Shown here: positions 804 to 2,209 of the stretch, piece by piece
Numbering within the stretch: position 1 is the first letter of the stretch
How the letters are laid out: the number at the start of each line of letters is the position of its first letter
Origin: Candidatus Gastranaerophilales bacterium
GTDB lineage: Bacteria > Cyanobacteriota > Vampirovibrionia > Gastranaerophilales > Gastranaerophilaceae
NCBI GenBank assembly: GCA_905236775.1
Contig: CAJOOM010000138.1
Location: forward strand, 1 to 33,700
Length of the DNA stretch: 33,700 bases
Reading direction: 5' to 3'
The notes under the pieces: generated by a model
Database searches by the model: none
Seen by the model: only the letters and a program-made list of their open reading frames with translations
What the model was told of the DNA's origin: nothing
Program-made: the position numbers and the translations under genes

Positions 804-1691
804 TTAGCCAGTAAATTCGCGACCTACTCTTTCAGCAGCATTTTGAGCCGATTTTGTGAAATCATCAATCATTTTTTTCCATGCTTCTAATTCAGAGAGA
901 TTTATACTATCTGTTGAACCTTCATCAGTCCAGTCTTTTTTAATTCTTTCAGCATCATTTTGAGCCAATTTTGCGGCTGTTTCTAAAAAATTATCCATCA
1001 TTCTTTTAAAGGCTTCTAATTCAGAGAGTCTATCAGCATCTGCTTCTGCTAGAGCTTTAGCACCAGCATCAAATCCATCAATTAGTTTTTGTAATTCACT
1101 TTCTGTATCTGTTTTGTCGCTATTATCTAGGTGCATGAGTGATAATGATGTATCATATCCGTTTTCAATATAATCTTGAAAAGCTTTTGTTCTTACTTCT
1201 TCATTATTGAGTGTATATTCTTTATCATGGAAAAATATTTCTAAATTATTAACATCAATATTTAGATTATTTTCTTTGATGTAATTTTCTAGTGCCTCAT
1301 GTCTTTCACCCGCTACTTCCATTACTATTAAAGAACTTGGCAAACCCTGTAACGGATATTGTTTCCAGATAGCAAACAAATCGTTCATATTGTCTAATGT
1401 AGGTTTTTTTGGTTCCGTATTTTCTGAACCTCTTGTTGCAACATCTTCTGTTTTAGTTTCTTTTACATCATTTTTTGCATAATCAGACATCTTATCCAAA
1501 TATTCACTCAAACGATTTGTACTGTCGCTTGCGGAGCCTCCACTTGGCAGCGGAGTCGGTTGAATACTACCTGAATCTGATGGAATTGAAGAGCCGGATG
1601 CTCCGGACGCGCTTGATGCGCTTGGTGCCATTTTCGAATTTTGCATAGCAACTCTGCGAGGCATAAAATTGTACTTTGAAATACCAGTCAT
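804..1691 (-). CDS. Ser/Gly-rich protein with C-terminal helical repeats, sigma-28-driven
   Basis: 295 residues of unknown family. An AAAGGAG ribosome site supports the ATG at 1691. Residues 1-60 are low-complexity Ser/Gly/Pro-rich with no classical signal peptide. Residues 95-190 look like a folded alpha/beta segment. The C-terminal third is a helical repeat region: two close copies beginning LSELEA (222-255 and 265-295) and a degenerate earlier copy from about 198, each ending near DAER or a variant. The two close copies are also alike at DNA level (about 829-900 and 945-1029), which points to recent duplication. Upstream lies a sigma-28 consensus promoter (1761-1787), otherwise typical of flagellar, chemotaxis and surface-motility genes. 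A secreted or motility-associated protein is plausible but not shown. Confidence 0.8.
   Translation of the reverse strand: MTGISKYNFMPRRVAMQNSKMAPSASSASGASGSSIPSDSGSIQPTPLPSGGSASDSTNRLSEYLDKMSDYAKNDVKETKTEDVATRGSENTEPKKPTLDNMNDLFAIWKQYPLQGLPSSLIVMEVAGERHEALENYIKENNLNIDVNNLEIFFHDKEYTLNNEEVRTKAFQDYIENGYDTSLSLMHLDNSDKTDTESELQKLIDGFDAGAKALAEADADRLSELEAFKRMMDNFLETAAKLAQNDAERIKKDWTDEGSTDSINLSELEAWKKMIDDFTKSAQNAAERVGREFTG
829..1029 (-). repeat. Internal tandem duplication in the 3' part of the 804-1691 gene
   Basis: Two segments (about 829-900 and 945-1029) share long stretches such as CATTTTGAGCC and GCTTCTAATTCAGAGAG in the same order. They encode the LSELEA repeats of the protein. Confidence 0.75.
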
Positions 1692-1760
1692 AATTAATTC
1701 TCCTTTCGTTTTCTTTATATGCTGATTCTTACAATCTCCATTTTGAGATTCGTAACATGT

Positions 1761-1787
1761 ATATCGGCATAATTTTTAAAAACTTTA
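1761..1787 (-). promoter_or_regulatory. Sigma-28 (FliA/SigD-type) promoter
   Basis: Read on the minus strand, TAAAGTTT (1787-1780), an 11-base spacer, then GCCGATAT (1768-1761). The textbook sigma-28 consensus is TAAAGTTT-N11-GCCGATAA, so 15 of 16 positions match with the exact spacing. The predicted transcript start lies about 60 bases before the ATG at 1691. Confidence 0.8.
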
Positions 1788-1841
1788 GTGATTTTAGTGA
1801 AATTGTTACAAAAATTTACAATCAATTAGCCAATATTATGC

Positions 1842-1888: not shown

Positions 1889-2209
1889 ATGAATTACCAA
1901 AAACTCATTACATCTAATATAAAAAATCTACGTTTAAAAAACGGATTAACCCAAGAGCAATTTGCTGAAAAAATAGGAATAACTATTAATGGTGTATCAA
2001 ATATAGAACGCAACAGATATCAACCAACGGCAAAAATGATTGATAAAATATGTAGTGCCTTTAATATCACTCCGGCTGAATTGCTAGTAACAAATACATC
2101 AGCATGTGAAGATTTAGTAATAAGTATTAACACATTAATATCTAATTGTTCTGTTAAGCAGCTTAAGCAAATACGAGATATAATTTTAATACTGCTAAGA
2201 AAAAAATAA
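1889..2209 (+). CDS. XRE-family HTH transcriptional regulator
   Basis: 106 residues from the ATG at 1889. Earlier in-frame starts exist back to 1757 but would add AT-rich, non-conserved sequence through the promoter region, so I reject them. Residues 8-62 form a Cro/C1-type HTH: NIKNLRLKNGLTQEQFAEKI, then the recognition helix around INGVSNIERNRYQPT and the closing ICSAFNITPAELL. The last 40 residues are hydrophobic and probably dimerise. No Shine-Dalgarno site precedes the ATG; a -10-like TATAAG ends 9 bases before it, so the mRNA may be leaderless. It is divergent from the sigma-28-driven gene and could control it or itself. Confidence 0.85.
   Translation: MNYQKLITSNIKNLRLKNGLTQEQFAEKIGITINGVSNIERNRYQPTAKMIDKICSAFNITPAELLVTNTSACEDLVISINTLISNCSVKQLKQIRDIILILLRKK

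Follow-up and report, generated by a model that had tools for sequence, protein, structure and literature searches.

A box resembling a flagellar sigma-28 promoter stands near one end of the 33,700-nt stretch of Gastranaerophilales DNA analysed here (the window), upstream of a gene whose product matched no Pfam family at the cut-off. The locus raises two questions: whether the box is a genuine promoter, and what kind of regulon the gene would then belong to.

The promoter and its gene

The features of the locus are listed below.

1761..1787, minus strand: FliA (sigma-28) promoter, matching the consensus in all but one base, with 37 exact siblings in the genome parts read
1787-1780, minus strand: -35 box TAAAGTTT, followed by an 11-nt spacer
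1768-1761, minus strand: -10 box GCCGATAT
1805..1822, read on the plus strand: HLR1-like direct repeat GTTACAAA-AA-TTTACAAT, 0 mismatches to KTTACAWW-NN-KTTACAWW
1700..1707, minus strand: ribosome-binding site GAAAGGAG, 8 nt 5' of the ATG at 1691-1689, read directly
804..1691, minus strand: regulon protein gene, 295 aa, pI 4.6, without signal peptide
1889..2209, plus strand: small HTH_3 (XRE-type) regulator gene, divergent, read from an inner ATG

The sequence TAAAGTTTTTAAAAATTATGCCGATAT at 1787-1761 (minus strand) had one mismatch, in the last base, to TAAAGTTT-N11-GCCGATAA, in agreement with the -35 TAAA(GTTT), the -10 GCCGATAA and the spacing of 11 that mark sigma-28 promoters. The near-perfect box claimed by the first-pass annotation, with its exact 11-nt spacing before the 804-1691 gene, was confirmed. 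The box lies 69 nt 5' of the ATG at 1691, and transcription from it would begin near 1753.

The window protein was Ser/Gly/Pro-rich near residues 20-58, and its C end consisted of two copies of a helical LSELEAxKxMxDxF unit; its earlier description as a Ser/Gly-rich repeat protein was fair. Single-sequence AlphaFold2 prediction gave a mean pLDDT of 39, too low to use. The only clear relative in another genome (G049, L086) had a box with 1 mismatch and an HLR1 with 1 mismatch at the same position as in the window, and a C-terminal paralogue in this genome (C139) was also boxed. A match in G042 resembled a FliH-type coiled coil and was rejected as an orthologue. At the window locus, the divergent HTH_3 gene showed no sign of regulon membership. 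A longer HTH_3 open reading frame from 1757 would extend across the promoter; its use is improbable.

The promoter family in the genome and the genus

Individual sites were analysed in the stretches of the genome that were read, and pattern searches covered the whole genome. At the 3-mismatch level, the 34-kb window contained 2 sites against 0.86 expected. The claim that the match is not due to chance did not hold at this loose level within the window, and it held by the genome-wide counts. The weight of the promoter call comes from these counts. The stretches read contained 37 exact TAAAGTTT-N11-GCCGWTAW sites, whereas 0.015 were expected genome-wide under a first-order Markov model. The spacer length was 11 in 37 sites and 12 in a single site; lengths of 8-10 and 13-15 did not occur. 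In the whole genome (2.1 Mb), 40 sites were found with 1 mismatch allowed, compared with 2 for the reversed pattern. With at most 1 mismatch to the E. coli-like consensus there were 24 sites, and many more had GCCGTTAT as the -10 box. The boxes mostly stood before genes.

Chance occurrence of the box in an AT-rich genome would fit the loose window matches, which were not above expectation. It is vanishingly improbable in view of the exact sites, their single spacing, their position mostly before genes and their conservation over 58 genomes. The window box is one of about 40 predicted sigma-28 promoters of this genome.

The genome encodes a FliA of 217 bits (family cut-off 189.6), with up to 88% identity to matching contigs, mostly from rumen and gut. 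Flagellins, FliD, FliP/FliQ/FliR and FlhA are also encoded. The scan and gene search suggested by the first-pass annotation gave about 40 promoters of the same form, some before fliD and flagellin, and a FliA above the family cut-off together with flagellins and FliD. Both the sigma-28 gene and further promoters of this form, whose absence it had named as counting against the prediction, are present. The boxes would be recognised by FliA.

In each of the 58 genomes examined from the genus, 13-50 sites were counted (median 28), with a median of 2 for the reversed-pattern control. Other families of the order mostly had 0-7 sites, near the control, and family f6 had 6-16. The count used the E. 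coli-like promoter form, so diverged promoters in other families would be missed. FliA above the cut-off with no flagellin was observed in G083, G084, G088, G089, G093 and G094 (families f11 and f12).

The HLR1-like element

A second element beside the box had been missed by the first-pass annotation. Upstream of the boxes, at fixed distances, TGTAA occurred twice in the same orientation with a 10-bp interval, and the opposite strand read KTTACAWW-NN-KTTACAWW. In the window, this HLR1 starts 35 nt upstream of the -35 box. Exact HLR1 was found at 27/42 promoters of this genome, 13/32 of G013 and 2/13 of G032; with 1 mismatch allowed, the G032 count was 7/13. Nearly all exact copies started 35 or 45 nt before the box. 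In an independent sample of 24 promoters from 24 other genomes, HLR1 was exact at 9 and present with at most 1 mismatch at 12. The background was 0.2% in random windows and 1.1% in AT-rich windows. A total of 526 kb held 44 exact HLR1 sites, 28 of them at boxes. The boxed flagellin C64 had no HLR1.

Away from the boxes, most HLR1 sites stood before further genes, many of them orphans, whose start region was TATA-like. These sites may represent another class of promoter under the same regulator. The sites with exact HLR1, a ACTTTATATATATGTAAG-like start region and no sigma-28 box were:

L246:5465
L321:2630
L321:3170
L055:2344
L044:2504
L358:6300

HLR1 is the RpaB site of cyanobacteria (PMC11633204, PMC13421787). 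In cyanobacteria, RpaB acts as an activator when bound to HLR1 at about -66 to -45 (PMC13421787), and the main class here would lie at about -69 to -52, assuming an inferred start 7 nt after the -10 box. The 18-bp consensus is identical and the position is near the activating one; in contrast to cyanobacteria, the putative RpaB site here accompanies sigma-28 promoters, and the lineage is not photosynthetic (PMC13421787, PMC11633204). Melainabacteria keep RpaA, RpaB and NblS (PMC3787301, PMC5877343), for which, without photosynthesis, the authors could only suggest another function (PMC3787301). By motif, no OmpR-type regulator, including rpaB, was found in the DNA stretches read.

The fixed, helically phased repeat at many promoters points to an OmpR-type regulator, and the protein binding the HLR1-like site would most likely be the RpaB homologue reported for the group. 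With somewhat less than even odds, the repeat instead binds a different regulator of the OmpR/PhoB type or serves the RNA polymerase alpha subunit as an AT-rich UP element. The AT-rich surroundings agree with such an element, but the full consensus at two phased places, with a frequency of about 1% in AT-rich windows, and the RpaB reported for the group (PMC3787301, PMC5877343) favor RpaB.

The promoters shared their -35 box, -10 box and 11-nt spacing with the class-III FliA/SigD promoters of E. coli. Class-III FliA/SigD promoters usually need no activator. The set described here differs from them in its far larger number of orphan genes and in the coupled upstream HLR1-like element.

Regulon products and their possible export

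In three genomes, the genes that follow the boxes were examined. Among known flagellar genes, boxes preceded fliD in two genomes, a flagellin gene and, in G013, an operon encoding a FlgI-like protein. In this genome, the fliD box was exact and that of flagellin C64 had 1 mismatch; the 320 nt preceding the second flagellin gene (C116:10800, L075:1801) contained no sigma-28 box. All three genomes read had boxes before a GAF/HD-GYP protein gene and the genes of several tiny proteins. Most of the remaining products belonged to no Pfam family, the exceptions being calpain-type proteases, a subtilase domain, dockerin/EF-hand motifs and a weak SprT-like match. Among 76 regulon proteins, 32 had no relative among the remaining ones. 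The HD-GYP protein and a MurC-like gene product were cytoplasmic in appearance. Judged from their sequences, most targets are orphan, signal-less, fast-changing proteins. The first-pass annotation had proposed either a flagellar, chemotaxis or surface-motility regulon or another use of sigma-28; both halves held, with a flagellar sigma-28 regulon that includes many proteins not known as flagellar parts.

Directly behind a box stood tiny proteins of 42-89 aa that were conserved in two or three of the compared genomes:

L076:1930-2088
L079:8212-8358
L057:2770-2898
L060:1811-1993
L057:14505-14774

Proteins of 93-111 aa, weakly alike, were observed just before proteins of 573-1778 aa, an arrangement like that of a chaperone and its substrate. 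The pI of these small proteins beside large orphans was 5.5-8.9; a type III export chaperone would be a small acidic protein next to its substrate, with a chaperone fold. The pairs were:

L063:196-5886
L064:3299-7560
L210:4510-6527

A boxed operon at L066:2084-8559 had signal-like N-termini and was fimbrial chaperone/usher-like by eye, unlike other regulon members.

The link between protein type and promoter was also examined from protein families. Among calpain-type (PF00648) open reading frames of the genus identified by HMM and having a readable 5' end, some of them near relatives of one another, 12/18 had a box within 100 nt, 10 of these with at most 1 mismatch. L068 was left out, having been found via its box. 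One further calpain-type frame of this genome was boxed with a 12-nt spacer, which raised the count to 13. The L068 product scored 28.2 bits against PF00648 (cut-off 23.8), and many other calpain-like proteins were below the cut-off. The catalytic Cys motif QGxxG(D/N)C(W/Y) was present in 16/19 calpain-type frames. A search of solved structures with a calpain-like protein gave no match. Proteins with the GGITQGI N-domain in other genomes were boxed in 8/11 cases, two of them alike and with two members of this genome left out of the count; the G013 member was the second gene of a boxed operon. The partner of this domain was a subtilase in G013 and a calpain-like part in G005 and G017. These arrangements showed that the predicted regulon targets are modular, with a common N-terminal domain and differing C-terminal parts. 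In domain layout they resemble modular effector or exoenzyme families in which a common N-terminal domain is combined with exchangeable C-terminal ones; here a single N-domain is linked to subtilase-like, calpain-like or uncharacterised parts.

Membrane segments were predicted in 3/76 regulon proteins, compared with 50/156 background proteins. By hydrophobicity only, an N-terminal stretch was hydrophobic in 2/76 regulon and 44/156 background proteins, as expected of proteins without a Sec signal. Compared with the soluble background, the N-terminal 25 residues contained more N/S/T/G/Q and fewer I/L/V/A/M, a modest signal. The few membrane segments, this N-terminal composition, the protease and Ca-binding motifs and the modularity are consistent with export. 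Against export, the regulon core includes likely cytoplasmic proteins.

We consider it probable, at about 0.55, that FliA and an RpaB-like regulator control a flagellum-co-expressed, probably exported, modular set. FliA would drive the filament genes and a large, fast-changing set of soluble proteins made with the flagellum, and the RpaB-like regulator on the HLR1-like repeat would help the FliA-RNA polymerase. Most products would be exported with no signal being cleaved off, either by the type III gate of the flagellum or by a second flagellum-type gate encoded in these genomes, and would act outside the cell. The stronger form, in which a non-photosynthetic sister lineage of cyanobacteria rewired RpaB, a light-response regulator, via HLR1 to the flagellar sigma and the pair deploys a large modular set exported by a flagellum-type gate, is offered tentatively. 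It is unlikely that the orphan proteins of a sigma-28 regulon act inside the cell, in motor control, signalling or protein turnover during flagellar growth. The GAF/HD-GYP protein and the several tiny conserved proteins boxed in all three genomes suit such a role, but core motor control would not usually involve fast turnover of the set, exchangeable C-terminal parts, giant sizes, or domains for proteolysis and Ca binding.

Export by a second flagellum-type apparatus, and not by the flagellum, was also considered. In most Gastranaerophilales genomes, FlhA (about 865 and 720 bits), FliF (186 and 115) and FliP (268 and 218) each fell into two classes. The two-class genes were located as follows:

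G000: contigs C172, C17, C110, C104 and C32
G067: L325, 9979-18621

These second FlhA, FliF and FliP classes, in most genomes of the order, speak for the second gate, as do two flagellin-less families that have retained FliA along with, in most cases, a single FlhA, FliF and FliP. However, the FliMN-FliO-FliP operon of the second apparatus had no sigma-28 box in 20/20 relatives, and the promoters are common to flagellin and fliD, which makes this route rather improbable. A box at C110:1009 had suggested that FliA drives the second apparatus; this idea was rejected and the box was assigned to the orphan gene in front, because all 20 relatives lacked it before the operon.

The G067 second-apparatus cluster also contained FlgB/FlgC/FlgG-like rod genes and a lytic transglycosylase-like gene. 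Two extra FlhA proteins with the soluble C-terminal part only (488 and 216 aa) were found beside two full FlhA:

G000:C3:47780-48832 (L320:9751-11217)
G000:C139 (L321:9756-10406)

Partial flagellar gene sets have been reported for some members (PMC4040986; MEL.A1 in PMC3787301), and the second apparatus may explain them.

Under the preferred reading of a flagellum-co-expressed, probably exported set, the closest known kind appears to be the sigma-28 co-expressed, flagellum-secreted proteins (Feds, flagellar co-expressed determinants) of Campylobacter jejuni, which are likewise non-flagellar, sigma-28-dependent and made with the filament (PMC5223770). The two were compared by description. There are four Feds and dozens of proteins here, and secretion is known for the Feds and predicted here. 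The HLR1-like sites and calpain-type domains are extra relative to the Feds.

At the level of sequence, the analysis established the promoter family, its spread through the genus, the HLR1-like element and the domain modularity. Of greater weight than the single promoter are the size and modularity of this predicted regulon and its coupling to HLR1, and the HLR1 link is new. The role of RpaB in these bacteria is now testable because most promoters here carry HLR1, and HLR1 at sigma-28 promoters provides a concrete target set for RpaB in Melainabacteria. Dozens of so far unnamed proteins of widespread gut and rumen bacteria can now be recognised by their link to a motility sigma factor, and the promoter can serve as a tag to find flagellum-co-expressed, probably exported proteins.
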